IMG/VR virus record: IMGVR_UViG_3300030618_000021 | Coordinates: 1-53,561 of that record | Origin: a virus | Reading direction: 5' to 3' (one strand) | Length of the DNA stretch: 53,561 nucleotides | Part shown: positions 641 to 53,561 of the stretch, one piece after another | Layout of the letters: each line of letters opens with the position of its first letter | How positions within the stretch are numbered: the stretch's first letter is position 1 | Position numbers and translations under genes: made by a program | The notes under the pieces: generated by a model | The model's input: the letters and a program-made list of their open reading frames with translations, nothing else | Told to the model about the DNA's origin: nothing | The model's database searches: none

Positions 641-885
641 GTTTCAAACAGTTGGTAGTGGTTCGAATTCTCCTGATGATCGCTAAGTTCGTAGCGCCGT
701 CTGAGTGGCAGCGTGACATCGATCAGTTGGCATCACATTTCACTGTGCATGGTCCCAAAGACCTAGAGGCCGATTCGGTAAAGGACAAACTTATTGTTGA
801 TTTGCAACGTAAGATCGAGGCTCAGGCCAAAGACCTCACGGATATGGCTCCCACAAACTGGCGTGCCGAGGTGCAGCACCCATGA
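637..885 (+). CDS. hypothetical protein, 82 aa
   Basis: Unknown function. The start is fixed by an ATGA overlap with the upstream stop, and its own TGA overlaps the ATG of the next small gene. The N-terminus (LVVVRILLMIAKFV) is hydrophobic enough to be membrane-associated. The rest is charged and helical. Confidence 0.6.
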   Translation: MSFKQLVVVRILLMIAKFVAPSEWQRDIDQLASHFTVHGPKDLEADSVKDKLIVDLQRKIEAQAKDLTDMAPTNWRAEVQHP

Positions 886-1043
886 AAGACTGGGCGATTC
901 ACCAAAGCCGTAGAGATGTACCATCACGGAACATCGTATGCTGTACGTTTTGTGGAGAGCCTGCGCCGTATAAAGCATCGGATGGATCGCCGGTGTGCTT
1001 ATCGTGTTTGAATGCCTACAAGCCAGAATGCAACAGAAAGTAG
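882..1043 (+). CDS. small zinc-ribbon peptide, 53 aa
   Basis: A short gene coupled to its neighbour by an ATGA overlap. It encodes two cysteine knuckles: CCTFCGEP near residue 20 and CLSC near residue 39. This is a classic treble-clef or zinc-ribbon spacing, so it probably binds one zinc ion and acts as an adaptor; that role is inference. The stop TAG lies within a copy of the dispersed 11-mer at 1031-1041. Confidence 0.6.
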   Translation: MKDWAIHQSRRDVPSRNIVCCTFCGEPAPYKASDGSPVCLSCLNAYKPECNRK

Positions 1044-1081
1044 CCGCCAATATGTCAACAGAAAGTTGTTTGAGGAACCTC

Positions 1082-1267
1082 ATGAAAGAACCTATCAACA
1101 CAAAGTGCCAGTGTCCTTTTTGTCGCGGCGATATCATAGATTGTCCCGAGTGTTTTGGGGCAGGAATGAGATTCGTTCCGAATCGTGGACCCACACATCC
1201 GGACTTGATGTTTCTTTACGTAGCGTGCAATGTGTGCGATGGCAAAGGGTATGTGCCGGTGAACTAA
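1082..1267 (+). CDS. DnaJ-type cysteine-rich zinc-finger protein, 61 aa
   Basis: Three CxxC knuckles (CPFC, CPEC followed by FGAG, CNVC followed by DGKG) resemble the CxxCxGxG repeats of the DnaJ central zinc domain, without J or C-terminal domains. I chose ATG 1082 because GAGG lies six bases upstream; ATG 1052 is in frame but has a poor ribosome site. An orphan zinc finger of this kind could be a chaperone-like adaptor, but no partner is evident. A similar CxxCxGxG pair occurs in the gene at 36362-36817. Confidence 0.65.
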   Translation: MKEPINTKCQCPFCRGDIIDCPECFGAGMRFVPNRGPTHPDLMFLYVACNVCDGKGYVPVN

Positions 1268-1277
1268 CCACTGCGTC

Positions 1278-1283
1278 TACAAT
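1278..1283 (+). promoter_or_regulatory. putative phage promoter -10 (TACAAT) before the helicase gene
   Basis: TACAAT in the context CGTC-TACAAT, the same context found before at least nine other genes in this window. The helicase ATG follows 26 bases later. No convincing -35 hexamer is visible. Confidence 0.4.
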
Positions 1284-1309
1284 GGTGGGTAAGGGAAAAC
1301 CACTCGCCA

Positions 1310-2647: not shown

Positions 2648-3603
2648 TGACGATCCTAGACATCCTTGAGGCAAGTTCACTTGACTGGCGATACGACCAT
2701 AAGCCGGGTGAGGTTTGGGTTTGCTGCCCTATATGCATTGAAAACGGAGAAACACCCGACACACGTTACAGGCTTGGTGTGAATTACGTTACGGGTCAGG
2801 CACACTGTTTCAATTGCCATTGGACATCAGACAATATCGTGTTCACTGCGAGGTCATTGGCAGCTGCTGCTGAGGTCGATCTACGCGGTACGGTGGTAAC
2901 ACAGCATAAAGAGCGTACGGAGCGTGCCAAGGTCAAGCCAGAGCCTGCTCCAACCTATCTAACGAACTTGCCTGAGGGTTATGAACGATTCAATTACAAG
3001 TCGCCGTTCGAGAAACGAGCGCTGGCGTATTTGATGGACAGAGGCATTACCAGGGATCAGATACAACGCTGGGAGATTGGATACGCCATGGTGGGGGTAT
3101 ATGCCGGTCGTATCATCATTCCAGTAGTTCACGATGGCAAAATCGCGGGTGTGGCATGCCGGGATTACACGGGCATCTCTGATTTGCGCTGGAAAAACTC
3201 GGAATCGTTGCGTGGGATCTTTGGGATGAAAGGCAACAAGTACGCAACAATAAGTGAGGGTGCTATGGACGCTCTCAGAATTGAAACTTTGGTGCCGGGT
3301 GAAGATTCTATTGCCATGTTTGGGTCCAACATATCAGACGAGCAAATGGAAATGCTCAAGCGTTATACAGGCGGGATTACGTATCTGGGAGATCATGATG
3401 CGCCAGGGTGCAAAGGGGCAAGGATCAATTGTGAGGATATGGCCATGGCCGGTCTCAAGGTAAGGGTGAGCATTCCGGCACGATTGGATGGTTCAGATCC
3501 TAGCACACAGTCTGACGAATTACTATTGACACGGCGACGGACTGCTGTAGCATGGTCAAAAGCAACTGAAAGGTTACTAATGCATCGTGAGGCGTTCAAA
3601 TGA
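2647..3603 (+). CDS. DnaG-like DNA primase (zinc finger plus TOPRIM)
   Basis: Synthesises RNA primers on the lagging strand. The N-terminal zinc finger is CCPIC (residues 26-30) with CFNC (54-57). The TOPRIM core carries the catalytic glutamate in ISEGAMDAL (about 204) and the metal-binding GDHD near 249-252. At 318 aa it lacks the long C-terminal helicase-binding domain of cellular DnaG, which is common in phage primases. The GTG start overlaps the helicase TAG by one base, and the next gene starts in an ATGA overlap. Confidence 0.88.
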   Translation: MTILDILEASSLDWRYDHKPGEVWVCCPICIENGETPDTRYRLGVNYVTGQAHCFNCHWTSDNIVFTARSLAAAAEVDLRGTVVTQHKERTERAKVKPEPAPTYLTNLPEGYERFNYKSPFEKRALAYLMDRGITRDQIQRWEIGYAMVGVYAGRIIIPVVHDGKIAGVACRDYTGISDLRWKNSESLRGIFGMKGNKYATISEGAMDALRIETLVPGEDSIAMFGSNISDEQMEMLKRYTGGITYLGDHDAPGCKGARINCEDMAMAGLKVRVSIPARLDGSDPSTQSDELLLTRRRTAVAWSKATERLLMHREAFK

Positions 3604-4097
3604 AATTTCTATTGGGCATTGATAATTTTGTATTGAGCTGTGTTGCGTGGTGCCTCGGGTTCTGTGAGGCTAATTTCTCTTGGACGCAGAAATGGATCGA
3701 GCGGGTGCTTATCGTCATGATTGGTATTTTGGGAATGTTAACCATCCATGAGTACTACACATATCAGATTTCTGGGCTGTTGTTTTTAGTGTGGTTTCTG
3801 TGGCGTGCTCATAAGAAACCAGCCGTGTACCGACTTACTATTGAGCGGTCTGTGTTCTCTCGTAGTATGCGTATTTTGTACATCATACTTTGCGGCATCG
3901 ATCTGAGTGCTATTGGAGTCATAAACTTTCATTTCAGATCATTAATGTTTACTTTGACTATGACTCTTATGTTCTACATGCTTGCAATCCCCTGGGACGA
4001 TGATGGGCAGCGCAAGCGTCATAAGAAACTCAGTCTGGCAAAAGCTATTGGATTGTTCGGTACGTCGTGGATTGAGCAACCCTTGGGAGTTCACTGA
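3600..4097 (+). CDS. multi-pass membrane protein, 165 aa
   Basis: Unknown function. Four hydrophobic segments are visible (about 36-52, 56-68, 90-108, 112-130), followed by a basic cytoplasmic-type stretch (DGQRKRHKKLS). The ATGA overlap with the primase and TGATG junction with the methyltransferase show it is translated as part of the replication operon. Membrane anchoring of replication or superinfection exclusion are possibilities, neither shown. Confidence 0.65.
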   Translation: MKFLLGIDNFVLSCVAWCLGFCEANFSWTQKWIERVLIVMIGILGMLTIHEYYTYQISGLLFLVWFLWRAHKKPAVYRLTIERSVFSRSMRILYIILCGIDLSAIGVINFHFRSLMFTLTMTLMFYMLAIPWDDDGQRKRHKKLSLAKAIGLFGTSWIEQPLGVH

Positions 4098-5392
4098 TGC
4101 CCCATTACAGGATGAAACAGGGAGATTGCCGACAAGTCCTCAAAAAGATGCAGGACAATTTTGTGTCCTCAATAGTAACTGATCCGCCTTATGAGATTGG
4201 TTTCATGAATCATGGGTGGGACAGTTCGGGCATCGCTTACGAGGTTGCTGTATGGAAAGAGGCATATCGTGTTCTCAAGCCGGGCGGATACCTGCTCGCG
4301 TTTGGTGGAGCTCGTACATATCATCGTTTGGCTTGTGCTATCGAGGATGCAGGATTTGAGATCCGCGATCAGATCATGTGGATTTATGGGTCTGGATTTC
4401 CGAAAAGTCTTGATGTCAGTAAGTCCATAGACAAAGCTGCCGGGGCTGAACGTGAGGTTGTGGGGCGTAAAGTGCATCCAGACGACGGATCTACACGCAA
4501 AGATGTCTCTAGATCACGCGGTATACATGACGGTGGACATCAACAAAATGGTTTGGGAGATATTACCGTGCCAGCAACAGAAAGTGCAAAACAATGGGAC
4601 GGGTGGCACACAGCTTTGAAACCTGCACACGAACCCATTGTTGTTGCTAGAAAACCGTTGATCGGTACTGTTGTTGAAAATGTGTTGACGCATGGTACCG
4701 GAGCAATGAACATAAAGGCGTGTCGTGTCCCCGGCGAACCTATCACTATTAATGTTCTTGAGGAGTGGTCTGGATTCGGCCAAAAAGAAAAGCCTACGTA
4801 CACAGCAACAGTAAGTGTGACAGGACGTTGGCCAGCCAATCTTATCCATGACGGATCAGACGAGGTACTGGATACGTTTGCAGAGTATGGTGGATTGCGG
4901 GCTCGTGGAAATAAAACACCAACAAAACGTGATGTAAAAACGCCGGGATGGGGGAATATCGGGTGTGGTCCTGATGGTCCTATAAATGGTGGTGATGCAG
5001 GCACAGCAGCACGGTTTTTCTACTGTGCCAAGCCCTCAAAGAAAGAGCGGAATGCTGGTTTGAATCGCTTACCAGATAACTTGGTAGGAACCTCTAACAC
5101 AGCTCAGGCAGAGCTAAAGCGCGGTCAGCTACGAGATCGTCAACAATCAGGTGTCAATAGTATTAAGGTGATGAAGAATTATCATCCAACGGTGAAACCG
5201 ATGACTCTTGCACGGTATCTTGTGAGACTCGTGACTCCACCTAAGGGTATCTGTCTTGATATGTTTGCAGGCTCAGGGACATTTGTTGTAGCGGCATTGG
5301 CTGAGGGATTCAATGCCTACGGTATTGAGAATGAACAACATTATGTTGACATCGCTGAGGGACGCATACAACACTTTCTGAACGGAGAATAG
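4097..5392 (+). CDS. DNA methyltransferase, beta-class (N6-adenine or N4-cytosine)
   Basis: Transfers methyl groups from SAM to an exocyclic base amine. Catalytic motif IV, DPPY, is at residues 29-32. The SAM-binding motif I (FAGSGT, about 390-395) is near the C-terminus; this IV-before-I order defines the beta class. A long central region (about 110-350) would hold the target-recognition domain. No restriction endonuclease is adjacent, so it is probably an orphan enzyme used for self-protection or regulation. The target sequence cannot be read from the protein. Confidence 0.88.
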   Translation: MPHYRMKQGDCRQVLKKMQDNFVSSIVTDPPYEIGFMNHGWDSSGIAYEVAVWKEAYRVLKPGGYLLAFGGARTYHRLACAIEDAGFEIRDQIMWIYGSGFPKSLDVSKSIDKAAGAEREVVGRKVHPDDGSTRKDVSRSRGIHDGGHQQNGLGDITVPATESAKQWDGWHTALKPAHEPIVVARKPLIGTVVENVLTHGTGAMNIKACRVPGEPITINVLEEWSGFGQKEKPTYTATVSVTGRWPANLIHDGSDEVLDTFAEYGGLRARGNKTPTKRDVKTPGWGNIGCGPDGPINGGDAGTAARFFYCAKPSKKERNAGLNRLPDNLVGTSNTAQAELKRGQLRDRQQSGVNSIKVMKNYHPTVKPMTLARYLVRLVTPPKGICLDMFAGSGTFVVAALAEGFNAYGIENEQHYVDIAEGRIQHFLNGE

Positions 5393-6368: not shown

Positions 6369-8195
6369 ATGTCAAAATTCAGGTTGTCCGAATCACTACC
6401 GGACAGCGCGATCTCATTAAACTATGAGGGGTTCGCTGGACTAGAGCCGATGATTCTTAAATTCGCAAATATGACTTGGCAGCGAATTCCAGAGTCACAT
6501 CGGCGTCATATAGACAAAGAGGATATATTGCAGGAGACGCGAATGCGTGCGTTTGCTGCAATAGCAAGTTACGATCCAGGTAAAACTGGATTGAACGGCA
6601 AGACAGCAAAACTTTCATCTTGGGTGTATGGCACGCTCGCGTTACGCATGCGAGAAGTCAACGCTCCATTCACAGATCCAACACGCAATCAGAGTCGCAG
6701 CGGTATAGTTGTTGGCTTTGATGAGGCGTGGGAGAATCCTTTTTCGACATACGAACCCGTATTCGAAATGGGTCCGCATCTGCATGACTCGCTCGAATCG
6801 TTTGAGCAGGCGTACAAAGAGTCTGACACTAACACTCAACAGATGTTTCTTGATACGTTGGGACTACGAACTAAAATTCGTATTTCACCTAAACGCGGAA
6901 ATTCTGTTGCATTAGACATCGCGACCAAATGCAGGCTTACACCGACAGATTTACGGACGTTGCGGTCGCATGGAACGGAAAGGTGCGTTATCGTGGCAGC
7001 AAAACTAAGTAAAGGCGGAAAGCTCCCGCAGATCGAATGTGTAAAGTGCAGCAATAGTTTTTCAGTTACTGATGTCGGAAAGACTATTGACGCGCGTACT
7101 CTCGTGTGCTCAAATTGTTATGCAGAACAAAGTGAGAGTGAACTGACTTGCTTTGCAAAAGAATATGAGCCAACCGCGCCGGAGTGTTCGGGTCTATGTC
7201 CAGATCGAACCGTTTGCGCTGAGGTATCAACTAAGGGAGCCTATATGGGGATCAAAGTATCGAACAGCAAATCAGGCAAGACAAAGTCAACTCCAGCAGT
7301 AAAACCTGCATCAGAGATTGTGGACGATCCATTCGCTGATGAACCATTGGAGGTCGCAGGTTATCCGGTGGGGTCGTTGACTATCGGTAGTGAGCAGCTT
7401 GAGGTAGAGGATAATTCTATCGATGGCCATGACGATGAGCCAGCTGACGGAGAGTTCGATGAGCCGTTGGAGGAGGTACCTGAGGAACTGGAGGTACATG
7501 AACCAGCTCATGCAGACGAACCTCTGGATACGGCAGCAGATGATCCATTTCTCGACACAGCAGTCGAGGAGAAACCAAAACCCGCTACGGCGGCTAAACC
7601 CTCTCGTCAGAAAGAACAGGTGGTTATCGTGCCTGCCAAGCCTACTCCCGTGAAGGTTGCTCAAAAGAAAGTGCCGGTTAAGGCTGTGCCTGCTAAAAAG
7701 GCTGTTGTGGTCGTCAAAGCAAAGCCTGTAGTCAAGGCGGCAGCTCCTGTGAAGGTCGCAGCCAAGCCCGTAAAGGCAGCAAAGCCCGCTCCAGCGAAAA
7801 CGGCGGCTCTGGCTAAGGCTGGTAAAAAGGCCAAACGCGTGCTTAAGGCGTTCAAGCCTCAGTATTGGACCGGTCAGCATCCGTTCCGTCCAGGCACTGC
7901 GCTACACAAGATCGCTGAGAAACTGTTGACGCCTCCGGGTGTCAAGCTGAATCAGCTGATCGCATATGTCGCTAAGCAGGGGCTCAATTGGCGTGGTGTG
8001 CGTCACAATCTGGCCAAGGGTGCATCATTCAATGGCCAGTGGGAGTGGAAGTTCAAAATCGCTGACGACGATGCTCAGATGGTGACGATGAAAATCACTA
8101 AGCACCCTGATGCTGAGTACAAGAAAGAGTGCGGTGAGCCCGTCAAGCCTGTGGTCAAGGCCAAGGCAAAGGCAAAGGCAAAGGGCAAAAAGTAA
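6369..8195 (+). CDS. sigma-factor-like protein fused to zinc ribbon and histone-H1-like tail
   Basis: Residues about 45-100 (EDILQETRMRAFAAIASYDP, then SSWVYGTLALRMRE) match the pattern of sigma-70 region 2. A helix-turn-helix-like stretch near 180-200 (IATKCRLTPTDLRTL) could be region 4. A zinc ribbon follows (CVKC and CSNC, about 224-250), then an acidic linker, a lysine/alanine/proline-rich histone-H1-like segment (about 415-490) and a compact C-terminal domain (about 495-580). The expected role is RNA polymerase reprogramming and DNA binding; this is inference. A strong internal start at ATG 7245 (see findings) may yield the C-terminal half alone. Confidence 0.6.
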   Translation: MSKFRLSESLPDSAISLNYEGFAGLEPMILKFANMTWQRIPESHRRHIDKEDILQETRMRAFAAIASYDPGKTGLNGKTAKLSSWVYGTLALRMREVNAPFTDPTRNQSRSGIVVGFDEAWENPFSTYEPVFEMGPHLHDSLESFEQAYKESDTNTQQMFLDTLGLRTKIRISPKRGNSVALDIATKCRLTPTDLRTLRSHGTERCVIVAAKLSKGGKLPQIECVKCSNSFSVTDVGKTIDARTLVCSNCYAEQSESELTCFAKEYEPTAPECSGLCPDRTVCAEVSTKGAYMGIKVSNSKSGKTKSTPAVKPASEIVDDPFADEPLEVAGYPVGSLTIGSEQLEVEDNSIDGHDDEPADGEFDEPLEEVPEELEVHEPAHADEPLDTAADDPFLDTAVEEKPKPATAAKPSRQKEQVVIVPAKPTPVKVAQKKVPVKAVPAKKAVVVVKAKPVVKAAAPVKVAAKPVKAAKPAPAKTAALAKAGKKAKRVLKAFKPQYWTGQHPFRPGTALHKIAEKLLTPPGVKLNQLIAYVAKQGLNWRGVRHNLAKGASFNGQWEWKFKIADDDAQMVTMKITKHPDAEYKKECGEPVKPVVKAKAKAKAKGKK

Positions 8196-8223
8196 AGCGG
8201 TTTGCAGCACTTATTGTTGAGTG

Positions 8224-8818: not shown

Positions 8819-9399
8819 GGATTAGCTACATTGTGTCAGCATTCAATAGCTCGCGGTTTCTGCCGTGCCTGCTGGGATCTCTAGCGGTTCAGACAGATCA
8901 GGATTTCGAGGTTCTCGTTACGGATAATACTGTTGACGAGGATAAAGCGTTGGCTATCCGACGAGTATGCCGGATTTCTGATGTCAAGCATATTCGGTAC
9001 GTAAATACGCGCCAGACGACTTGCTATCACTCAGCAGAAACAGGTGTAGGGTTGGTTCAGGGCGAGTTTGTCTGTTTCCCATCAGACGATAACTATTACA
9101 TGCCCACGTTCGGCGAAGCAATGTACAGAACAGCCAGTGCCAACGGTGCCGACTTAGTGTTGTGCGAGATGATTTTTGACGGTCGTCGTGGTGGTCGGTA
9201 CTCAGTCATGGACACTAAAGCCGCGTTTGGACATGTAGACAAAGGTGGGTTCATTCTGCGCCGGGATAAGTTCCAACCGTTCCCCGGCAAGCCTGATACA
9301 GACATACCGTGTGGTGCTGATGGTATGTTGATTGACCAGTTGGTAGCCTCTGGGATTTCCCATATTAAACTGCCGGATATCTTAGTCGTTCACAATTGA
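8815..9399 (+). CDS. GT2-family glycosyltransferase, short
   Basis: GT-A fold enzyme that would transfer a sugar from a nucleotide sugar. The N-terminus reads ISYIVSAFNSSRFLPCLLGSL and then TDN; the donor/metal site is probably SDDNYYMP near residue 85. At 194 aa it is a minimal catalytic domain. Acceptor could be phage DNA bases, virion protein or host surface; nothing in the sequence decides. Confidence 0.75.
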   Translation: MRISYIVSAFNSSRFLPCLLGSLAVQTDQDFEVLVTDNTVDEDKALAIRRVCRISDVKHIRYVNTRQTTCYHSAETGVGLVQGEFVCFPSDDNYYMPTFGEAMYRTASANGADLVLCEMIFDGRRGGRYSVMDTKAAFGHVDKGGFILRRDKFQPFPGKPDTDIPCGADGMLIDQLVASGISHIKLPDILVVHN

Positions 9400-9405: not shown

Positions 9406-9702
9406 ATGAGAAAGATTTGGATGGACATTCATGATGGTGTAGTGCCACGGCGTGGAGATAGATTGTTGTCTCCGAAAAGCGTTTATCATGTGCTGCACGT
9501 CCATCGAATGAAACGACGCAATCCGGACGCCGTACCCAGGTTTCAATTATTCGTACTAAGGGCGGATGAGTTTGATGATGAGATTCTAGTGCAACGCCTA
9601 CTCCAATCAGCGAATCGACGCGGCGGTCAGCAGATCATCAGATTTACATGGAATTCACGCAACAAAAAGTCAAAAGGACTGAGGTTAGACTCGTGGCTCT
9701 GA
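9406..9702 (+). CDS. hypothetical basic protein, 98 aa
   Basis: Not recognised. Arginine/lysine-rich with short strands (KSVYHVLHVHRM, RFQLFVL). A GAGG site six bases before ATG 9406 supports the start. Its last 10 bases overlap the clamp gene start, implying coupled translation. Confidence 0.55.
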   Translation: MRKIWMDIHDGVVPRRGDRLLSPKSVYHVLHVHRMKRRNPDAVPRFQLFVLRADEFDDEILVQRLLQSANRRGGQQIIRFTWNSRNKKSKGLRLDSWL

Positions 9703-10766
9703 GAATACAACGTGATGCATTCATCAGCACAATAGTAAGTCCATCCCATTTGATCTCACCCAACGATCAGTTGTTCACGTCGACACATATAAAGATTGTT
9801 GCCAATAACGAGTCAGTACGTGCTTACTGCTCCGGGGATCATATCAGCTCGTGCGCCTATATACCATTTGAGACGATTGAACCCGGAACGTTCTATTTTG
9901 CCCGTGCTGCGCTAGAGGCATTCGCGACTAAACTTACTACTGATGCAGTGACAATCGAACACAACGGATCAGAAAGCATTCTACGGGCAGATCAGCGTAC
10001 GATGACATTCGCAGATCCTAAAAAGCATTTTTCGTTCCCGCGCAAGCCCACATCGAATTTGGAGAGCTTGGATACGTTGAGTGAAAGTGATGCCCTCATG
10101 ATTCAGACAGTGGCTCAGGCGAGCACAGAGAACGATCAGGTGCGATCTGAATATCACTGTGTATACGCTGATCCGGTAAAGTCTGGTACAGAGATATTCG
10201 CTTATAACGGATCGGCATTAGCCATGGGTGTTTTGGATAAAAAGTTCAAGCATGCCGTAGCGCTGCCTACACAATTGTCTCGTATGGCTAAGTTTGGTAA
10301 CTTACTTGTGAGTCAGGAGGAGGTTGGGATCGAGGGTCCGTATTGCCTCTACTGGTGCAAAGCTCCGATTAAGGCTCAACACGCATTTCCGCTGGACAAG
10401 GTACGCGCAACTCTAAATAAGCCTGCTGAAAAGTTGTTTGAGATCGAGGGCAAAGGAATGTCAGCCGCCGTGGATCTCCTACAGCGGGCGTTTGCGTCCT
10501 GGGACGAAGCTAGTGATGCGATCTTGGAATTGGACGGCAACACACTCAAGGTTCGAGTCAAGTTCCCCTCCACACGATTTGAGGAGGTACTTTCTGTTGA
10601 GGGCAGCAGTAGAAAGTTTACGGTTAAGCTGCCGCTGAAAGAGCATTCACGCCTGTTACCGGCCTTAGCTCGTATGCCACTGTTGAGTGTCTACAATGTG
10701 GGTAAGCACATTCGATTCGAGGGTGATGGATTCAAATTACTCTTGCCGGTGGATTACTCAAAATGA
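9693..10766 (+). CDS. sliding-clamp-like protein (divergent DnaN/beta type)
   Basis: The length of about 357 aa, three successive beta-rich segments and the N-terminal pattern IQRDAFISTI resemble the bacterial beta clamp, which would tether the polymerase to DNA. Sequence conservation is weak, so this rests on length, fold pattern and neighbourhood: polymerase downstream and a DnaX-like loader at 21 kb. I prefer GTG 9693, with GAGG nine bases upstream; an ATG at 9648 in the same frame would add 15 residues and overlap the preceding gene further. Confidence 0.55.
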   Translation: MALRIQRDAFISTIVSPSHLISPNDQLFTSTHIKIVANNESVRAYCSGDHISSCAYIPFETIEPGTFYFARAALEAFATKLTTDAVTIEHNGSESILRADQRTMTFADPKKHFSFPRKPTSNLESLDTLSESDALMIQTVAQASTENDQVRSEYHCVYADPVKSGTEIFAYNGSALAMGVLDKKFKHAVALPTQLSRMAKFGNLLVSQEEVGIEGPYCLYWCKAPIKAQHAFPLDKVRATLNKPAEKLFEIEGKGMSAAVDLLQRAFASWDEASDAILELDGNTLKVRVKFPSTRFEEVLSVEGSSRKFTVKLPLKEHSRLLPALARMPLLSVYNVGKHIRFEGDGFKLLLPVDYSK

Positions 10767-15142: not shown

Positions 15143-15201
15143 CTTACTGTTGATTCAAACAATAGAAACTAACTGGCTATAATCTGTATGAGGTGAAATT
15201 C
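15142..15201 (+). promoter_or_regulatory. promoter region of the SSB gene with dispersed motif
   Basis: An 11-mer copy (15142-15152, ACTTACTGTTG) touches the upstream stop. TATAAT lies at 15178-15183 in the GGC-TATAAT-CTG context. GAGGTGAAATTC and ATG 15202 follow, giving a very short leader. The motif lies 25 bases upstream of the -10. Confidence 0.6.
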
Positions 15202-32604: not shown

Positions 32605-32605
32605 A

Positions 32606-37076: not shown

Positions 37077-37103
37077 AACTTGTTTTGTATGAGGTGGGTA
37101 ACG

Positions 37104-37277: not shown

Positions 37278-37279
37278 CC

Positions 37280-42609: not shown

Positions 42610-44982
42610 ATGTCCATCGTAGCGTTTCCAGCACAAGTTTCGAGCACTACTTTCTATGCCAGTCAATGCGGCTGTGCCCTTGATGGTGTGACAGATGATG
42701 CTCCAATCATCAATGCCATTCTCGCTACAGCAACACAGGCTACGCCCATTAAGTTCATCATTGATGGCTTAGCAGCGGTATCTGACCTTACGATCTCGCC
42801 CCTTGGTTTCACAACGATTGAGGGTTTGGGTTGGTCAACAGGATTTATCCGGATTCCCTCGGGTACGTTCTCCAATAACGGTATCAGCATTGGGCCGTAT
42901 TCGTTATCCAATCCTTATCAGGATGGACAGACTGTTGCGTCGCCTGCAATAACAGCGAACTACATTGAGTTGCGTGATTTCAGTATGAATCTGAATTTCC
43001 CATCGGGGAATCCGTCGTTTACAGCAGCGAATTTCCCTGTGTCTGGCGCACCACCTCATGCAACGTTTGGAATTTGTCTATTCGGTTGCAATGAAGTATT
43101 GATCGATCATCTCCTGCTTTTAGCACCTCCGTACTACAACATTCTTGTGTCGAACTGCACGAACGTAACGGTCCAAAATTGTGATCTCTTGTCCAACACG
43201 CAACTGCGTGATGGTGTTCACATTGACGGGCCGTCATCCAACATCAAGGTGCTCAATTGCGATATTGCAACTGGCGATGACGGTATCGCGATTAACTGCC
43301 CTGAGGGTGCTGGTGGTGATATCAACGGTGTGTTCATTGACAACTGCCGGTTCACAGCTGCGGGTAGCTTGGTGCGTATTTACACGTCAACATCCGCACT
43401 CCCAGGAGCTATTTATCATGCCCGCAACATTGTGATTTCGAACTGCACTGGAACATCACTCGGTGCGCCGATTCATATTGGTGTTGAGGGTGCTCCAGCA
43501 TCTACTGTGGAGCAGGTGCATGATGTCATTGTGAGCAATTGCAGCTTTGGATCAAATGCAGCTGAGAGTGTTGGTTTCCTTTCAATCAACATGCCGTTCG
43601 ATCTGGTCATCATCCGTGACTGCATATATTTGCCGACAACAACGAGCCCGGTGGTGGCTGTACAGTCGCTTTCGACAGCAGGTACATTGGAACTGCGCAA
43701 CCTCAAGGTCATGCGGAATGCAGATGGCAACGCGGCACCTGCGTTTATTTCACTGCAAAACTGCACGATTAACAAATTGGTCCTTGATATTAGTGTTGAG
43801 GATTTGGTGGGGAGTTCCTACACACCACTCCCAACAGTAATAACTGCATCAGGAGCATTCGGCAGCGGCAGCGGCTCAACAATAAGTCATCTTGTCATTG
43901 AGCGAATCGGTACGCTCCATATTACTCAGCTATTTGACTCTACGTTTGGACCCGCCTTTACGGTTACATCCGTTGAGGGCAGCGGTGTTCTGAACACAGG
44001 CTGGGAGATACCAGATGCCAACATGGGCAACAACTCGCCTTATATCTCCAGCACAGAGGCCGGGGATGTGTCGATCAAAATTAGTGGTGTGCCTTATGCG
44101 TTTCAGTTCTCATCCGGGGTTGCTCCGCTTGCATTCAATTTGCTGTCTAGCGGAGTAAATCTTTCAGCAGCGATGGTCCTGGGTAGTGGGGCGAGCCTGA
44201 CAGCGAGCGGTGGTGGTTCGATTAGTGCTAACGAGCTGAACGGTGCGCTTGTTCCCGCATCGAGCGCGGTACTAGGCTCAAATTCGTTGGGACAGCTTAC
44301 CAATAACTCAGCGTCGTTCCCATCGTTGACAGGGACCAACCTGCACACAGGGGCTAATACGTTTTCTGGTGTGGTGACGGGAGCAGGCTTTACGGCAACC
44401 GGTGCAGCCCCACTCCTTATCCCCAATAGCACGTTCATCGAAGCACTAACGAGCGGTGGCGGCGCTGCTGCAATCATTGGGGTGAGTGGTGGCGCGGGCA
44501 ATGCACTGTTGGTGGGATCTCCAGCAGCAACTGGCACAGGCGGTGTTCATCTTTACGCCAGCGGTACGGATGCGTTGGATGTCACAAGTCTTGGTGTATT
44601 TTCCAACGTGCCGCTCACAGCTCCGAATATTAATCAGGTTTTGTATGCCGAGTTTTTCCTGGGGCTAACTGGAGCAGTCCTTTCGACGACTGGTGCAATA
44701 ACACCAAGTACGGGTTTATATCGGATATCGACGCAGGTTCGAGTTGTTGGTGGAGCTACAGCTGGGACTGTTGTGTTGACAGCGAACTGGACGGACAGCC
44801 ATGCAGTTGAGGGCAATACGATGGCGAATGTTTCCTTAGTAAACGCGTCTAATACGTTCCAAAGTATTATGGTGATAGCCAACGGCGGAACAGCTTTGAA
44901 ATTCAATACCACATGCGCCGCGACAGGATCTTATTCGTATGATCTTGCAGTCATGTTCGAGTTAATACCCGCAGTAGCTTAG
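42610..44982 (+). CDS. tailspike protein, right-handed beta-helix (GH28/pectate-lyase-like)
   Basis: Residues 1-380 form a beta-helix: CALDGVTDDAPIINA at the start (typical D-G-x-x-DD pattern), then repeated NC turns and TGDDGIAI, which carries the DD catalytic pair of GH28-type polygalacturonases. The C-terminal half is glycine/serine-rich with short beta repeats, ending in a compact TNF-like beta domain (FFLGLTGAVLSTTGAITPSTGLYR). Probable role: degrading host surface polysaccharide. The gene follows the LamG protein by three bases. Confidence 0.75.
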   Translation: MSIVAFPAQVSSTTFYASQCGCALDGVTDDAPIINAILATATQATPIKFIIDGLAAVSDLTISPLGFTTIEGLGWSTGFIRIPSGTFSNNGISIGPYSLSNPYQDGQTVASPAITANYIELRDFSMNLNFPSGNPSFTAANFPVSGAPPHATFGICLFGCNEVLIDHLLLLAPPYYNILVSNCTNVTVQNCDLLSNTQLRDGVHIDGPSSNIKVLNCDIATGDDGIAINCPEGAGGDINGVFIDNCRFTAAGSLVRIYTSTSALPGAIYHARNIVISNCTGTSLGAPIHIGVEGAPASTVEQVHDVIVSNCSFGSNAAESVGFLSINMPFDLVIIRDCIYLPTTTSPVVAVQSLSTAGTLELRNLKVMRNADGNAAPAFISLQNCTINKLVLDISVEDLVGSSYTPLPTVITASGAFGSGSGSTISHLVIERIGTLHITQLFDSTFGPAFTVTSVEGSGVLNTGWEIPDANMGNNSPYISSTEAGDVSIKISGVPYAFQFSSGVAPLAFNLLSSGVNLSAAMVLGSGASLTASGGGSISANELNGALVPASSAVLGSNSLGQLTNNSASFPSLTGTNLHTGANTFSGVVTGAGFTATGAAPLLIPNSTFIEALTSGGGAAAIIGVSGGAGNALLVGSPAATGTGGVHLYASGTDALDVTSLGVFSNVPLTAPNINQVLYAEFFLGLTGAVLSTTGAITPSTGLYRISTQVRVVGGATAGTVVLTANWTDSHAVEGNTMANVSLVNASNTFQSIMVIANGGTALKFNTTCAATGSYSYDLAVMFELIPAVA

Positions 44983-45016
44983 CGCAACATAAAGTCAGTG
45001 GGAAAGGGACTTATTT

Positions 45017-45815: not shown

Positions 45816-46537
45816 TGAATCAGTTCGATATACAAACCGCAGCGCTCTCTAATCGCAGGTGCTGGCAGATAGCACGTAAGACATTACGGGTTGACCCACG
45901 CTGTGCCCAGAGAGATCAGCTCCAACTTTATGTTGCACGTTTACACGATGCATTGGATACGATAGGCGACGAGTACCTGAACGATCCAGATACTGTTGAG
46001 GACAACACGAACAAGCATCATGGGATCTTGCTGGCAGTGGCTACCCCCATGATTGCCGGAGCCTATCTGGCAGGCTATCGCCAGACGAGTGCAATCCTTG
46101 ATCAGAAAGTATCTCCGGCAACGGTCCAGCTGATTCAAGCTGAGGCTCAAGGCCGGGCCGGGTACATGGCGTCAACCATGACCCAGACGACGCGGGAACG
46201 GGCTCCTGTGCTCTCGGGCGACCCAGACAGCGATCAGGAGCTTACCCAGGCATTCAGGGGTGGTTATACGTTCTCTAAAGATCGTGCTAAGGCTGCTACG
46301 ACCTACGAGATGGTCAAAGGCTATAAGGCCATGGTGGAACGCTCCCTGAGAGCCTCAGGACAGTCTTGGGGCAAGTGGTGGGAAGTTTCTGATGCTCATG
46401 AGGTTCAGGATGACTGCGATTTGAACGAGGATGCTGGCGTAATCCCGATAGGGCAGGAGTTTCCGTCTGGAGATCAACAGGAACCTCAACACCTTTTTTG
46501 CCAATGTAGTGTTTTCTATACAAGGATGGATCTATGA
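45815..46537 (+). CDS. MuF-like minor head protein (gp7/gp30 type)
   Basis: The end of the protein has the pattern WWEVSDAHEVQDDCD, then G-IPIGQEFPSG, then P-x-HLFCQC. This matches the C-terminal D-C ... PxHxxCRC motif of SPP1 gp7/Mu gp30 minor head proteins, which organise the head-tail connector. The preceding 150 residues are helical, as expected. GTG start overlaps the upstream TAG. Confidence 0.65.
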   Translation: MNQFDIQTAALSNRRCWQIARKTLRVDPRCAQRDQLQLYVARLHDALDTIGDEYLNDPDTVEDNTNKHHGILLAVATPMIAGAYLAGYRQTSAILDQKVSPATVQLIQAEAQGRAGYMASTMTQTTRERAPVLSGDPDSDQELTQAFRGGYTFSKDRAKAATTYEMVKGYKAMVERSLRASGQSWGKWWEVSDAHEVQDDCDLNEDAGVIPIGQEFPSGDQQEPQHLFCQCSVFYTRMDL

Positions 46538-47304
46538 CGATCAACAAATGGTGTTTGGTAGCTCTTACGGTGTGTGGTTGTGCCTGCTTAATTGTGTTGA
46601 CGATGTTTCTGTTGACAGCACGCCATACTGACTTAGTGTTGCAGAATCGTACAGCCGTGTTTATGGACTCTACAACGGCAGTTGTCAAAACGTTGACTAA
46701 GGCATGCCCTATTGGGGTCAGTGCAGGACCCGATTGCGGTCTACTGGTACAGCTCAACAACTCCATTGTGCAGCTCAATAATGTCACTGTGCAATTGAAA
46801 TCGGTTGCTGGTGGTGTCAATAATCTTATGTTTGCCAGCACCCAGACAGTCAACAGTCTTAACGCTACGGTTGAAAAGATCAATCGGGACTGTGGGGATA
46901 AAGCTGACGATGCATGCGGAACATTAGCCGACGTTGCCAAGACACTCAACACTTTTCGGAGGACGGCGGGATACGCTGAGATAGCTGCGGATCACGAGGA
47001 TAAAAACCTTACGAAACTGGATGGACAAGAGGCTATGCTGTTTAGCGATTTTCATAATACGTTGGGATCAGGCAGAGATAGTATTGACAGTCTGACCATT
47101 CTGTTGAAAAACACAAACATTCCTGTAGTCATAAAGAACGTAGCTGACATGACGACAACCGGCAATCACATGTTGGTTACGGCTGACGCCGTGGAGACCA
47201 AGTTGACGAAATGCACACTACACCCTACGTTCGGCTGCACGTTCAAGGCTGATGCAATCTTTGGAGCTCAGGTGAGCGGCTATATCCTGTCAGGCTTGCA
47301 CTAA
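46534..47304 (+). CDS. membrane-anchored helical protein, 256 aa
   Basis: N-terminal transmembrane helix (CLVALTVCGCACLIVLTMFLL), then a long periplasmic-type region with helical repeats (LLVQLNNSIVQLNNVTVQL) and several cysteine pairs (about 55-70, 120-130, 230-240). ATGA overlap with the MuF-like gene. Could be a spanin-like or tail-interacting protein; unassigned. Confidence 0.5.
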   Translation: MTINKWCLVALTVCGCACLIVLTMFLLTARHTDLVLQNRTAVFMDSTTAVVKTLTKACPIGVSAGPDCGLLVQLNNSIVQLNNVTVQLKSVAGGVNNLMFASTQTVNSLNATVEKINRDCGDKADDACGTLADVAKTLNTFRRTAGYAEIAADHEDKNLTKLDGQEAMLFSDFHNTLGSGRDSIDSLTILLKNTNIPVVIKNVADMTTTGNHMLVTADAVETKLTKCTLHPTFGCTFKADAIFGAQVSGYILSGLH

Positions 47305-48006: not shown

Positions 48007-49935
48007 ATGATTGCCAATCGTAGTTTGGTTCAGCAGCATGTACCGGGCGACGCTAAAGTGCGTGCTCGTTGGGCGCGAACGTTCGCGCCCTCGTCCAAGT
48101 TCTATTACACACGTGTTCGCTTGTTGAATGCGGCGCTGCCTGAGGAAACTGCGAACATCACAGCCAATACCACGATCAAGCGTCAGCCACTTATTATTGA
48201 CGCGAATACCCGCAATTACGGTCGTGTTGGAACGTTCATTCCCAAGTGCCTCGTCATAGCTGGCAATGCGGTACGGCGTGAGGCTCTAGGACAAGGCAAG
48301 AGCTATGCGATGGCATGGGTCGGTGAGAATGCGCTGCGAGACATGAACGTATTCGCCTCGGATGGCATCAGCTACGACGAGCTGTATCAGAAACTCAGTG
48401 CGGCGCTGCGTAAAAAGTTCAAACAGGGATCTGGTGATGGCTACGATGATGTTGCCGAGGTCGGGTACTCCTTAGGTGGCCCTTACATCAGTTCCGTGTT
48501 TCCGTTTGACAACAACGTTATTTTTTCACTCAACGGACAGACATTTCAACTGGATTACACCATCGATACGCAGGCTCGTACCGTGGCGTTCACGGGTACG
48601 CCTGTCAAGGTGGAGCAAGAGTATGTGGATGTGGACGGATGCGGCAGTATAGATTCGTTCGATCCTCGTTCCCGTGCTCCGTATGTCCCTACAGGGCTGC
48701 GAGTGAACCCAACGATGGTTCTGCCAAGCCTGTTTACTGTCTCGCTTGGTGCCGTTAATTCCGAGTTGCGGAATCCTATGTTTGGTGAGGCATTCTTGAA
48801 CGTAGACAAGGTGGTTAATGCCTATCTCAGCGACATCAAGAACGGTACTCATCAGGCCGTGGTTCCGTGGGGATCTCCCATCCCTCTTACACGGATGGTG
48901 TTTGCCGGTGAGCTGCGAAATCGCGGTGTGAATTCGCCAGCAGATTTCTTTGTATGGGTCGATGCCAACAAGTCCAAAACGGTTAGCGGAGATCCTGTTG
49001 ACGCGGACGACTTTGCGTACATCGGCGACCCCAAGAAAAAGGAGACTTGGAAATTGCCCATTCATGATAAGGGACATGTGCGGGATGCGATGTCACGGTT
49101 CGATCAGACGGATCTGCCGTCTGAGGCCAAACCCAAGGTCGCCCGTAAGATTTCCAAGCGGGCTAAGGGCATGGGTATCGATACGACCGACTTTGACAAG
49201 GAATACACTGTCAAGGCCGGTGGTCCTGGGAGTGGGCCGCGTCCCCACGGTGGCTCGGGAACAGGGCACAGCAACAGTAACGATCAGGCGGCAACAGTAA
49301 GTGAGTTTAAGAATCGTGGTTATAGCGGACACGAGACACCAGACCCAGACGGAACAGTTCATCTGTCCAAGTCCAGTGACGATCCGAACACGGGCGACCG
49401 TGATGCCCACATTCATGAGGATGGATCATGGACACATTCTGATGAGCACTACAACACTAAGAAAGGCGGCGCGTCATACGACGTGGCTAAGCAGCTTGGG
49501 CCTGTTGCAGTGAAAGCTGGAGGTCCAGGCAGCGGTCCCAGACCTGGCGGTGGCCACGATGCTTATGATGACGGACAGCACGGTAAAAAACCCAGCAATG
49601 ATGAACGTGGTTATGAGGACGGACAGAGAGATCCAGCCGGTTTCAAGCATGACCATGACTCACGAGATGCTACAGTTGCAGCGTTTAAGGACAAGGGTTA
49701 CAAAGAGGATACTCCTGAACCCGGTACAGAAACAGTGGACCATGGTGGACGCTCTTTGAGTCGCGATGACGGTGCTAAGGGGTTCAAACATGCTGAGGTG
49801 CATCCTGACGGCACGTTCACACACACTGCTGGACCGTGGGATACGTATCGCGGGCGGAATGCGGGTGAGGTAGGCAAACTGCTAGGAGCCACCAGTAAGA
49901 AAAAGTCACTACGTGCAAAGCTGTTGGGCCGGTAG
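48007..49935 (+). CDS. virion-region protein with DUF6582-like domain and duplicated AGGPGSGPRP modules
   Basis: Residues 1-340 have mixed alpha/beta sequence without a known family. Residues about 345-400 (ETWKLPIHDKGHVRDAMSRF, then KVARKISKRAKGMGI) resemble the DUF6582 domain found in phage prohead-protease or portal-linked proteins. Two tandem modules follow, each opening with VKAGGPGSGPRP (near 403 and 504). Each contains ATV-x2-FK-x2-GY and a G-x-HxE-x2-PDG or AHIHEDG strand set. A processed or modular capsid-associated protein is likely; this is inference. AGAAACACA precedes the ATG. Confidence 0.55.
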   Translation: MIANRSLVQQHVPGDAKVRARWARTFAPSSKFYYTRVRLLNAALPEETANITANTTIKRQPLIIDANTRNYGRVGTFIPKCLVIAGNAVRREALGQGKSYAMAWVGENALRDMNVFASDGISYDELYQKLSAALRKKFKQGSGDGYDDVAEVGYSLGGPYISSVFPFDNNVIFSLNGQTFQLDYTIDTQARTVAFTGTPVKVEQEYVDVDGCGSIDSFDPRSRAPYVPTGLRVNPTMVLPSLFTVSLGAVNSELRNPMFGEAFLNVDKVVNAYLSDIKNGTHQAVVPWGSPIPLTRMVFAGELRNRGVNSPADFFVWVDANKSKTVSGDPVDADDFAYIGDPKKKETWKLPIHDKGHVRDAMSRFDQTDLPSEAKPKVARKISKRAKGMGIDTTDFDKEYTVKAGGPGSGPRPHGGSGTGHSNSNDQAATVSEFKNRGYSGHETPDPDGTVHLSKSSDDPNTGDRDAHIHEDGSWTHSDEHYNTKKGGASYDVAKQLGPVAVKAGGPGSGPRPGGGHDAYDDGQHGKKPSNDERGYEDGQRDPAGFKHDHDSRDATVAAFKDKGYKEDTPEPGTETVDHGGRSLSRDDGAKGFKHAEVHPDGTFTHTAGPWDTYRGRNAGEVGKLLGATSKKKSLRAKLLGR

Positions 49936-50015: not shown

Positions 50016-50405
50016 ATGAGAACTTTTCTTTTGGGAGTTTGTTATGCGTTGTTAGGATTAGGCGGCGGAATACTGTTGGGAATGTTCTTTGACAGTCATG
50101 ACTTTTTCGATACCGTTCTGAAAAACAAGGGTGTCATCATTTTCAACGGCGGATTACTGTTGACATCGGCTATCAAAGTGCTGCCTCCTCCAGGCGTTCC
50201 GTTCGACATCTACACATTTGTCTACGACTGGACACATCAGTTTCTCAACATTACGAATACACGGTTGCAATCAAACCCAATCATTCAGCCGCCGATTAAC
50301 GCACCGACTACAATCATAGAGCAACAGAAAGTCATACCAGATGTACCCACATCTACTGTTGCGTCCCCAAAAAGTACGAGTGGCTCAGGCCGCTACAATC
50401 TGTAA
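50016..50405 (+). CDS. membrane protein, 129 aa
   Basis: ATG 50016 with AGAGGGTG upstream. Two hydrophobic segments: LLGVCYALLGLGGGILLGMF and GVIIFNGGLLLTSAI, followed by a proline/threonine-rich tail ending SGSGRYNL. Function unknown; a lysis or envelope role is possible. Confidence 0.55.
   Translation: MRTFLLGVCYALLGLGGGILLGMFFDSHDFFDTVLKNKGVIIFNGGLLLTSAIKVLPPPGVPFDIYTFVYDWTHQFLNITNTRLQSNPIIQPPINAPTTIIEQQKVIPDVPTSTVASPKSTSGSGRYNL
50394..50399 (+). promoter_or_regulatory. putative phage promoter -10 (CGC-TACAAT)
   Basis: Lies inside the last codons of the previous gene. CTGTAAGGAGGTCAGTAA and ATG 50418 follow, the same compact arrangement as at the SSB and recA genes. Confidence 0.5.
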
Positions 50406-51397: not shown

Positions 51398-51401
51398 AGC
51401 C

Positions 51402-51788
51402 ATGGCGACCGGGTACGATTGGGCGGGTCACGTAAAAAGCGTGGCTCGCCTTTTACATGCTGATGGTAGTGGCTGGACGAACAAGGCTGTGTATGCCTTG
51501 GACCGATCAGGCCGTGCTGTAACGTTCCTCGATCCAGGGGCTGTTGCATGGACGCTGCTGGGTGCTAACGCGACTGTCCTGTACGATGCCGGTACGCCTG
51601 CAACTGTAGCTCTCCATATACGGCGAACAGAAATCATGATGAAACTGTACGCTAAGGCTGGTATACCGCTTATAGCAAAATCTCATGCTACGACAGCACT
51701 CATCAAGTTCAATGAGGTAGCAGAGTGGGCTGACGTAGAAAAAGTGTTGCGTGCGGCGTATGCTATTGCGAGAAAGGTTCAAGGGTAA
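51402..51788 (+). CDS. DUF6197-like protein
   Basis: The pattern WTNKAVYALDRSGRAVTF, AVAWTLLGANA, then IKFNEVAEWADVEKVLRAAYAIA matches the short phage family DUF6197, whose function is unknown. Starts four bases after the holin-like gene. Confidence 0.6.
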   Translation: MATGYDWAGHVKSVARLLHADGSGWTNKAVYALDRSGRAVTFLDPGAVAWTLLGANATVLYDAGTPATVALHIRRTEIMMKLYAKAGIPLIAKSHATTALIKFNEVAEWADVEKVLRAAYAIARKVQG

Positions 51789-51791
51789 GTC

Positions 51792-52007
51792 ATGGAATTT
51801 CCTAAAGAGGCCCGGTGCAAGAACTGTTGCCACTATACAGAGCCTGTACAGTCTGGTAGCTATGGGCAATGTGGCCTAATGAGTGGGAGTAAAGGTGTAG
51901 CTATGAATGTGAGCACGCTCGCATTTGCAGAGGATGGCGATATGTACTCAGCATGGGTTAATACATACCCTGATTTTGGGTGCGTTCAGTTCGAGGTGAA
52001 AAAGTAA
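51792..52007 (+). CDS. small Cys-rich protein, 71 aa
   Basis: Four or five cysteines (CKNCCHY, GQCGLM, FGCVQF) spaced as in small phage zinc or iron-sulfur proteins. TAATG junction with the next gene. Function unknown. Confidence 0.55.
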   Translation: MEFPKEARCKNCCHYTEPVQSGSYGQCGLMSGSKGVAMNVSTLAFAEDGDMYSAWVNTYPDFGCVQFEVKK

Positions 52008-52486
52008 TGCCAGTCACATTGACCAAAAAAGAGATCAATGACTTACTTGTGAAAGAGCGGGCCAAGAGCCGAACTCGTCAACAGCAATCTGCATTCATGA
52101 AACGTACTCTCCAGATGTACAACGGAGATAAAGGACGAATCCGTGAGAAAACCGGAGATCCTAAAGCTGAGCTGCCTTACACACTTGAGGAGCTGCGAGC
52201 TCTTGTACAGGCGTGTTTAGGCAAGCCATGCAAGTACAACAGTAAGATCAAACTTTCTGTTGCGAATATTGCTGCCGATCATAATGTTCCGTTGGCACGC
52301 GGCGGCACGTTTGACATCTTGAATTTGGACATCATCTCTCAGCAGAGTAATTATCGTAAGGGCGCATGGACGGGAGATGAGTGGCAAAAATTTGTAAAGG
52401 GTTTGGAAAAAAACTTTCCCCCTGAGGCTGTTGAGGATATGTACCGCAGGCTCGTATTAGGCGGGAAATGGACCAGAACTTTATAG
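52007..52486 (+). CDS. HNH endonuclease
   Basis: The motif C-K-Y-N-SKIKL, then ADHNVPLARGGTFDILNL and QQSNYRKG is an HNH core (DH, GG, N and N-x2-K) near residues 78-130. The N-terminal 75 residues form a helical DNA-binding part. Could be a homing enzyme or, as in many phages, a packaging or repair nuclease. ATG 52007 uses the TAATG junction. Confidence 0.82.
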   Translation: MPVTLTKKEINDLLVKERAKSRTRQQQSAFMKRTLQMYNGDKGRIREKTGDPKAELPYTLEELRALVQACLGKPCKYNSKIKLSVANIAADHNVPLARGGTFDILNLDIISQQSNYRKGAWTGDEWQKFVKGLEKNFPPEAVEDMYRRLVLGGKWTRTL

Positions 52487-52497
52487 AGGAGATTCTG

Positions 52498-53561
52498 TTG
52501 AGCATCGAAACGTATGGCAAGAGTATTGCATTCTTGGCTGGCGGGGTAGACGCGTGCGCACTCTGGCGTGCATGGACTCCCTACATCAATATGCCTAATT
52601 CAGGTTTCTACTATCAGTTCAAGGCTGAGGACGTACTTACTCATGACTACGTGATGGTGCAGCGTCTGGGATTGCAAAACAATCTTACGGCGATGAAAGG
52701 TCTGCGGTCGGTAGATATGAAAATCATTTACGATTTGGATGATTTTCTGTGGGATGTTCCAGATTGGAATCCGCATGTAGAACTGCTGCGTCAGGTGGCA
52801 CACGGCTACTCGGTATGTCTGAAGCACTCCGACGTGGCCACGGTGAGCACCTACCCCCTAAAGAAAGCGATCCTCAAGCATCACAAGCACGATCTGATAA
52901 ACGTGTTGACGGGTAAAGAGATTGAAATCGTGGTATGCCCGAACAAGATCGATACCAGGATCGTAGCGCCATACCAAGAACGCGACGAGTTGATCGTAGG
53001 GTGGGCTGGGTCCAATACTCATGAGAAAGACTTCGACATTATCATGCCTGCGTTGCAGAGACTTATTGTTGAGTTTCCGCAGGTAGTGTTTGAGTTTGCC
53101 GGATGGATGCCAGAGGTCCTGAAACAGCACTCCAATACACGATTCAGGTATTGGACACCAGTAAGTGAGTTCTTTACCCGGTATCCACGTTGGGGTTGGA
53201 GCATTATGCTTGCCCCACTGTATTCGCATCCGTTTAATAATTGCAAATGCATATCAGCAGATACGTATGTATTTGGACGTAAGAATGGAAATCTTAGACA
53301 TCTCCCATTACGAAAGATGATCGAAAATGCAGATACTGTTGAGCTACCCGGTCCTGATGGTAAATGGCGGCGCGTAGTGTCATCCGAGTATCAACCAAAG
53401 CAACTCGGTTTATCTGTCGGTGTTCGTGGCGGAGATTTTTATCATGTAACTAAGAATCATAGATTCATCCTTGAGGACGGTACAGAACGATTTGCATACG
53501 ACATCAAGATTGGAGATCGAATTAAGGATGTGAGTTTGGAACCGTTTGGGACGGAACATTC
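52498..53561 (+). CDS. glycosyltransferase (GT4-like) interrupted by an intein, runs off the window
   Basis: TTG 52498 has AGGAG six bases upstream; ATG 52468 is an alternative in the same frame. The extein has IYDLDDFLWDVP, ELIVGWAGSNTHEKDF and LAPLYSHPFNNCK. This sequence fits GT-B/GT4 enzymes, where FNNCKS-x-IK... is the conserved nucleotide-sugar site. The reading frame passes straight into an intein at 53248 and stays open to the window edge, so the downstream half is not seen. The substrate is unknown; decoration of phage DNA, virion or host envelope are options. Confidence 0.8.
   Translation, partial: MSIETYGKSIAFLAGGVDACALWRAWTPYINMPNSGFYYQFKAEDVLTHDYVMVQRLGLQNNLTAMKGLRSVDMKIIYDLDDFLWDVPDWNPHVELLRQVAHGYSVCLKHSDVATVSTYPLKKAILKHHKHDLINVLTGKEIEIVVCPNKIDTRIVAPYQERDELIVGWAGSNTHEKDFDIIMPALQRLIVEFPQVVFEFAGWMPEVLKQHSNTRFRYWTPVSEFFTRYPRWGWSIMLAPLYSHPFNNCKCISADTYVFGRKNGNLRHLPLRKMIENADTVELPGPDGKWRRVVSSEYQPKQLGLSVGVRGGDFYHVTKNHRFILEDGTERFAYDIKIGDRIKDVSLEPFGTEH
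53248..53561 (+). mobile_element. intein N-terminal part (partial, cut by window end)
   Basis: Block A begins with Cys in CISADTYVFG. Block B is GDFYHVTKNHRFILEDG with the TxxH. The insertion is directly after the FNNCK of the glycosyltransferase, where the next expected extein residue is Ser. The C-terminal splice junction and any homing domain lie outside the window. Confidence 0.88.

Follow-up and report, generated by a model that had tools for sequence, protein, structure and literature searches.

Two forms account for most known cases of protein-binding words dispersed in phage genomes: stoperators, which number in the tens and are oriented, and host uptake sequences in prophages. Chi sites are also dispersed asymmetric words, acting in cis. 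The sites of ParB-family proteins are palindromes, and plasmid RK2 carries about a dozen palindromic 13-bp KorB operators. In cluster A mycobacteriophages, 24 stoperators are counted in L5 and 34 in Bxb1 (excerpt of PMC3029335), and the uptake signal sequence (USS) called Hin-USS saturates at ~750 copies per Mb in Pasteurellaceae and their phages (excerpt of PMC6776037). Here we describe a short word dispersed over the virus record IMGVR_UViG_3300030618_000021, which comes from a bacteriophage represented by environmental DNA only; all 53,561 bases of the record were analysed and are called the window below. This phage, in which no tyrosine integrase was detected, carries unoriented copies by the hundred and accommodates them in its genes mostly through the choice among synonymous codons. 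Either a protein of the phage would coat or mark the entire genome by sequence, or a competent host would have a third type of uptake sequence. We tentatively interpret the hundreds of sites as genome-wide recognition by one putative, asymmetrically binding protein that acts independently of orientation.

The exact word ACTTNNTGTTG occurred 49 times in the window (23 forward, 26 reverse), whereas 100 dinucleotide shuffles averaged 0.53 copies and never exceeded 3. The original prediction had counted 42 exact copies between 789 and 53071; our first and last exact sites fit this extent, and the enrichment held, whereas the number was too low. It had also named equal enrichment in codon-preserving shuffles as a result that would overturn it. 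When 100 such shuffles of 25 window genes (31,458 bases) were run, the word survived, with 23 real copies against a mean of 0.9 (maximum 4). That is, the observation is real and larger than was first claimed.

We derived a motif profile by expectation-maximisation over four phage pieces. The profile was trained on the same sites it counts; reversed (not complemented) sequence and codon shuffles served as controls. The motif is 12 bp long, A-n-W-T-W-n-T-n-n-T-G-H, with the best form ACTTWCTGTTGM and the profile A-[C/A/G]-[T/A]-T-[A/T]-[C/G/T]-T-[G/T/A]-T-T-G-[A/C/T]. Bases 1, 4, 7, 10 and 11 are near-invariant, bases 3 and 5 are A or T, bases 2, 6 and 8 are loose, and base 9 is mostly T. The word first described, with nine fixed bases and a free 2-base centre, was therefore genuine but too strictly drawn: the C at its base 2 and the G at its base 8 frequently give way to other bases, and the two bases taken as free are A/T and then mostly C. 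With the full motif, the window (1-53561, both strands) holds a field of 181 sites, 49 exact and 132 degenerate; 102 of the 181 are plus-strand sites and 79 are minus-strand sites.

A sister contig, G001 (IMGVR_UViG_3300030503_000212 in IMG/VR; 107,763 bases), carries 88 copies of the exact word, 87 of them in the pieces analysed. It matches the window from 1 to ~35,290 with four single-base differences and is identical to it at 51,403-53,248; between ~35,290 and 51,403, a stretch that was not aligned base by base, the exact sites stand at the same offset in both. The last 313 bases of the window (53249-53561) diverge from the continuation of G001, which reflects either an assembly junction or a real rearrangement. 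The profile found 386 sites in G001; at equal threshold, the reversed sequence yielded 36.

The 386 sites were divided between the strands (206 plus, 180 minus), as were those within genes (150 sense, 132 antisense). The coefficient of variation of neighbour spacing was 1.04, and bin counts were Poisson-like or slightly more even. A tandem repeat or an array of clustered regularly interspaced short palindromic repeats (CRISPR) was rejected, because there are no regular head-to-tail units and spacing is Poisson on the two strands, in agreement with the mixed orientation and irregular placement reported at the outset; a palindromic element was rejected because the motif is asymmetric. Pairs of sites 12-20 bp apart were about twice as frequent as expected (20 vs 10.4), and closer pairs were rarer (2 vs 16).

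Genes were called with our own simple coding-score script; the gap figures depend on these calls, and gaps >200 bp may hide uncalled genes. By these calls, 104 of the 386 sites are intergenic or at gene edges and 282 lie within genes, and 42 of 87 exact copies are intergenic or at edges. The density of full-motif sites was raised about fivefold in short intergenic gaps. Among the gaps of 15-99 bp, 33 of 47 carried at least one site, and exact copies reached 7-10 per kb there vs 0.5 per kb in genes. Some sites, of both orientations, fall after the stop codon of one gene and before the start of the following gene. In co-directional gaps of 15-199 bp, 30 sites were oriented with and 27 against transcription (13 and 10 for exact copies).

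Within coding sequence, 263 sites were counted in 92 genes of 300 bases or more (81,516 bases in total), whereas 60 codon-preserving shuffles averaged 39.3 (maximum 56); for exact copies, the figures were 39 against 1.7 (maximum 5). In two reading frames the strict bases coincide with wobble positions, and there the enrichment reached 12.6- and 10.4-fold; three further frames gave 6.5-, 5.5- and 2.5-fold, and stop codons all but close the sixth. As strictness falls mainly on every third base (1, 4, 7 and 10, plus 11), the motif can be written into many genes by synonymous codons. Of 1485 places that synonymous change permits, 262 are occupied, and the number per gene roughly tracks capacity. 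The filled share ranged by frame from 10% to 52% and was highest in the frames that need particular residues; therefore, the sites may have shaped some amino acids too. Three conserved genes are free of sites, namely an SSB-like gene (window 15202-16545) and two unannotated ones (L020:13528-14535 and L020:18033-19142). Avoidance was rejected for these genes, which were picked post hoc and have low synonymous capacity (expected 2.1, 1.6 and 3.2 sites).

Gaps, with 14 perfect copies and 13 carrying one mismatch, showed the same kind of mismatch tolerance as genes, with 19 and 52, respectively, and the profile was similar across reading-frame classes. Accordingly, the three-base rhythm seems to belong to the recogniser rather than to be imposed by codons, and site specificity looks intrinsic, the gap side of the comparison consisting of those 14 and 13 copies. 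A left CA flank accompanied 14 of 42 exact sites in gaps or at edges vs 3 of 45 exact sites in genes, indicating that the left flank contributes a little. Overall, the pressure is uniform and genome-wide and is limited mainly by protein coding.

Recognition by one asymmetric binder is the account we prefer, although we hold it with less than even confidence. One sequence-specific protein would read the double-stranded 12-bp word (ACTTACTGTTGA) asymmetrically, and this putative protein would bind throughout the phage genome, at hundreds of sites of both orientations. It may be encoded by the phage (or by the host) and would condense, silence or mark phage DNA, thereby presumably exerting the pressure. 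Its action would be somewhat stoperator-like, through many bound copies per genome, yet directionless. The step from site to function is one that we infer. The pattern supports the earlier proposal of dispersed asymmetric sites for some DNA-binding factor, with binding itself putative, whereas a promoter or activator element, which had also been proposed, is unlikely because sites lie on both strands and inside genes. Some arrays do look operator-like, for example the three exact sites with 14- and 17-bp spacing before a parB-like gene. A more specific version, which we regard as rather doubtful, is that the phage labels its own DNA by sequence rather than by chemical base modification, the word being a mark of self that a phage protein recognises; such a mark would serve protection, condensation or template choice.

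Several results weigh against a single binder. No candidate strong enough for the role was found among the phage proteins weighed. If the role were purely regulatory, the 282 in-gene copies (45 of them exact) would be needless. The spacing is uneven, unlike that of a possible ordered nucleoprotein, and 10.5-bp helical phasing between sites, which such a structure might show, was tested and not found. The phage belongs to a group with genomes of ~107-125 kb: at ~22-58% identity, G003, G012, G014 and G015 share with it the helicase, polymerase, RecA, SbcD-SbcC fusion, terminase and portal, along with several structural-region genes that lack annotation. We searched these four for dispersed words of their own, leaving aside those concentrated at few places or lying mostly on one strand; the best z was 10.6-15.1 vs 42.4 here. 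The four large relatives thus have no comparable motif, suggesting that the supposed system is not common to the phage group. In addition, the profile was mildly above its reversed control in G012 (48 vs 28) and G015 (31 vs 16), in pYD38-A (15 vs 7) and GP-1 (16 vs 11) at threshold 10, and in AT-rich loci. The reversed control therefore understates chance somewhat. The excess in G012 and G015 is mild and far below the 386 vs 36 of the phage, and G003 (15 vs 16) and G014 (17 vs 17) showed none.

Twelve relatives chosen through the SbcD-SbcC fusion held 10 copies of the exact word in 787 kb vs 11 in reversed sequence, which is chance. In the opening 14.6 kb of G001, 21 genes were called, among them a topoisomerase, an N6-methylase and the ParB-like gene; none of the 21 had a match in the four large relatives at E 1e-4. 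The 125-kb relative G012 (L051-L057) contains a nine-base word of its own, CCTGTATCA, 12 times vs 0.8 expected, on both strands (3 and 9). A word in G006, GACCCAGG (49 vs 7 expected), was read as a composition effect because its reversed control was 19 and CCCGGG is under-represented there; the words frequent in L016, L030 and L033 belong to other, tandemly arrayed sequences.

The main rival of the single binder is an uptake-like word: a competent host would prefer it, and the phage would accumulate it by molecular drive, as temperate Pasteurellaceae phages do the USS. We consider this unlikely, but the likeness is broad. According to the excerpts cited here, the USS of Pasteurellaceae and the DNA uptake sequence (DUS) of Neisseriaceae are also short asymmetric words of random strand and position, with graded mismatches, located in genes and of similar density; the 807 exact copies per Mb here compare with the Hin-USS figure given above. 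The distribution fits the published traits of no orientation bias, uneven spacing, graded mismatches, a non-coding excess and many copies in genes (excerpt of PMC1939737). Pasteurellaceae show a bias to gene ends (excerpt of PMC2346458), and site rates here were 2.08, 1.55 and 1.79 per kb-strand in the first 100 bp, the middle and the last 100 bp of genes, respectively. All DUS dialects but one have a UGA stop in one frame (excerpt of PMC3630211), and sense frame 0 here contains 1 site. However, no tested dialect matched: nine USS and DUS words occurred at 0-2 copies each, and the strict CTG core of the DUS is absent here. Phages >150 kb, which are likely lytic, are USS-poor (excerpt of PMC6776037). 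Tyrosine integrase (PF00589) and ParA (PF13614) were not detected in the sister contig, which may be incomplete, or in the four large relatives; serine integrases were not searched.

The search for a host also speaks against uptake. We scanned for two copies in the same orientation within 30 bp. In 84,980 bacterial and archaeal genomes, this returned 110 stretches, all of which were scored (the densest 18 of 121 were listed); by title, two genomes appeared twice and none more often. No host-like genome dense in the word was among them. As the sister contig alone gives 4 pairs, we estimate that a host of equal density should give dozens. Among viruses, the scan returned the sister contig and 38 other contigs with 2-7 exact copies each over their full length, none of which carries the word densely. 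Among the stretches inspected closely, the dense copies in L119, L120, L162 and L163 were tandem arrays, and the density of L212 was one local cluster, with 8 of 9 copies within 1 kb. This cluster (JAUIFE010000037.1, a Holophagae metagenome-assembled genome, 6725-7691) consists of eight same-strand ACTTNNTGTTG copies with irregular spacing and is probably a repeat-rich gene. Ten whole genomes were counted and were close to the reversed control; those above it, G055 (72 vs 45) and G058 (21 vs 11), both have tandem arrays. An inverted-pair scan gave 18 stretches, including 17 new records with 2-8 exact copies each, and missed the sister contig itself; therefore, its negative says little. Across the two pair-pattern scans, no other record carries the word densely, and among the records examined this phage alone has the dense form. 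Among the literature matches listed, nothing had an evident bearing on the word, and there was none for dispersed phage motifs.

A less probable reading is that the sites are operators or loading sites of a ParB/KorB-like protein of the phage, which would clamp or repress genome-wide, in the manner of KorB on RK2. The phage encodes such a protein (L019:11259-12104), with ParB_N and KorB matches above cut-off, HTH_ParB below it, and structure matches to Spo0J and Noc, although its cognate role is putative. As with KorB operators and parS, a site array precedes the ParB/KorB-like gene: the three exact sites directly upstream of its start each have the left CA, which yields CAAC-N5-GTTG, and this is the commonest of ten spacings (50 vs 16 reversed). 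By our estimate, however, a triple cluster is not rare at gap density. The protein was not found in the 12 motif-poor relatives, in a search without a positive control, which shows little. Unlike RK2 operators and parS, the motif here is asymmetric and present in hundreds of copies: T stands at base 4 in 98% of sites, whereas A is found at the mirror position in only 5%, and just 45 of 386 sites have the outer CA. The motif being non-palindromic, the ParB/KorB-like protein is a weak candidate. ParA was not found, with the scope given above, and pYD38-A and GP-1, whose ParB-like proteins have ~30% identity, carry no such dispersed word. Another record that encodes a ParB-like protein (L026, IMGVR_UViG_2856306670_000001) has seven palindromic CTATCN5GATAG sites, which are probably repressor operators.

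Strict stoperators of the cluster A type, that is, repressor-bound and orientation-dependent roadblocks of a temperate phage, are improbable. The original prediction had suggested sites of the L5 type, and the resemblance lies in an asymmetric site of 12-13 bp, strong copies that overlie gene ends or lie in short gaps, and arrays near some gene starts; the stoperators of L5, Bxb1 and D29 are likewise many, short, asymmetric and dense in short gaps and gene ends (excerpt of PMC3029335). In the orientation test, however, the sites did not behave as stoperators. With the same profile procedure, mycobacteriophage D29 gave 26 sites in 49 kb, 17 of them intergenic. By our reading of the annotation, 24 of the 26 oppose local transcription, a count that assigns six sites past the last annotated gene to the leftward region, and the two exceptions are at the left end. 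In contrast, the gap sites here are split 30 with and 27 against transcription, and 282 of 386 are in genes. With ~386 sites in 108 kb, the density is about seven times that of D29 per kb, and the totals for L5 and Bxb1 are likewise in the tens. In addition to the undetected tyrosine integrase, no repressor was recognised among the proteins scanned, a subset of all. The present sites are not members of the stoperator family, but they may resemble it in crowding DNA with bound protein.

Still less credible are Chi-like sites read by the recombination machinery of the phage. The original prediction had proposed polarity sites for SbcD-SbcC and RecA, and the phage does encode an SbcD-SbcC fusion, RecA and an exonuclease; protection could drive accumulation, and Chi shares the dispersed, asymmetric character. 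However, the sites show no strand polarity, the 12 fusion-bearing relatives are at chance, and the four large ones, with the same nuclease, have no comparable word, so this proposal is weakened. The fused SbcD and SbcC gene (window 22084-25293; 1069 aa) recurs in twelve other phage contigs at 29-33% identity. The RecA/UvsX-like gene (window 16976-18946) has an apparent HNH intein in its ATP-binding loop, which was read by eye as starting with CLADDT and ending with VVHN-S and has HNH and UvsX matches.

Anchor sites for a histone-like protein had also been proposed. A candidate is present, by our guess the protein at window 6369-8195, with a sigma-region-2-like start, a zinc motif and a K/P/A-rich, histone-H1-like tail; these parts were read by eye, and the Pfam matches are weak and sub-cut-off. 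Partial matches to it occur in 7 of the 12 word-poor relatives (some to the zinc part or the low-complexity tail only; 3 with masking), and its presence in relatives without the motif argues against a role as binder.

An artefact of codon usage, composition or repeated peptides, although most sites lie within genes and two frames are preferred, is ruled out for practical purposes by the codon shuffles, which retain 1.7 exact sites vs 39, and by the enrichment in five of six frames and in non-coding gaps with equal specificity in gaps and genes.

The exact sites of the window are as follows (strand in brackets). The first, at 789-799 (+), is followed by three clustered before a DnaB-like gene, at 1031-1041 (-), 1056-1066 (-) and 1096-1106 (-), and by 3245-3255 (-), 4575-4585 (-) and 4806-4816 (-). 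The site at 8209-8219 (+) is intergenic, as is 9660-9670 (-) by the gene calls used; 9152-9162 (+) and 10589-10599 (+) lie to either side of the latter. The DNA polymerase gene contains 11793-11803 (+) and 13779-13789 (-). After 14604-14614 (-) and 14953-14963 (+), two sites lie over stop codons, at 15142-15152 (+) with a 59-bp gap and at 16936-16946 (+) with a 48-bp gap. Next are 18211-18221 (+), 18951-18961 (-) in a 34-bp gap, 18985-18995 (-), 19430-19440 (+) in a 67-bp gap, 19920-19930 (-), which is intergenic, 20510-20520 (-), and 22053-22063 (-), again intergenic. The SbcD-SbcC gene holds three, at 23529-23539 (+), 24425-24435 (-) and 25248-25258 (+).

Further along, 27708-27718 (+) lies at a gene edge and is followed by 28266-28276 (+). 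Nearly all genes on the minus strand fall within a block at window 27700-33000, and a number of the sites in this block have longer flanks in common (TCAACTTACTGTTGACGA), as though they had been duplicated along with the neighbouring sequence. These extended flanks are found at 28476-28486 (+), at 31036-31046 (+) in a 32-bp gap, at the intergenic 31323-31333 (-), and at 32980-32990 (-), which forms a pair with 32961-32971 (-). The sites at 29380-29390 (-), 32594-32604 (+) and 33885-33895 (-) are intergenic. The remaining exact sites are 38429-38439 (+), 39585-39595 (-), 39682-39692 (+), 39885-39895 (-), 43877-43887 (-), 44985-44995 (-) in a 45-bp gap, 45925-45935 (+), 46631-46641 (+), 49292-49302 (-), 50322-50332 (-), 52252-52262 (+) and 53061-53071 (+).

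A DNA methyltransferase gene at window 4097-5392 has a profile match split by a long insertion, either an intein or a large recognition domain. The lowest site density of the genome was observed at window ~33400-37400, with 5 sites in 4 kb vs ~14, perhaps reflecting recently acquired genes.

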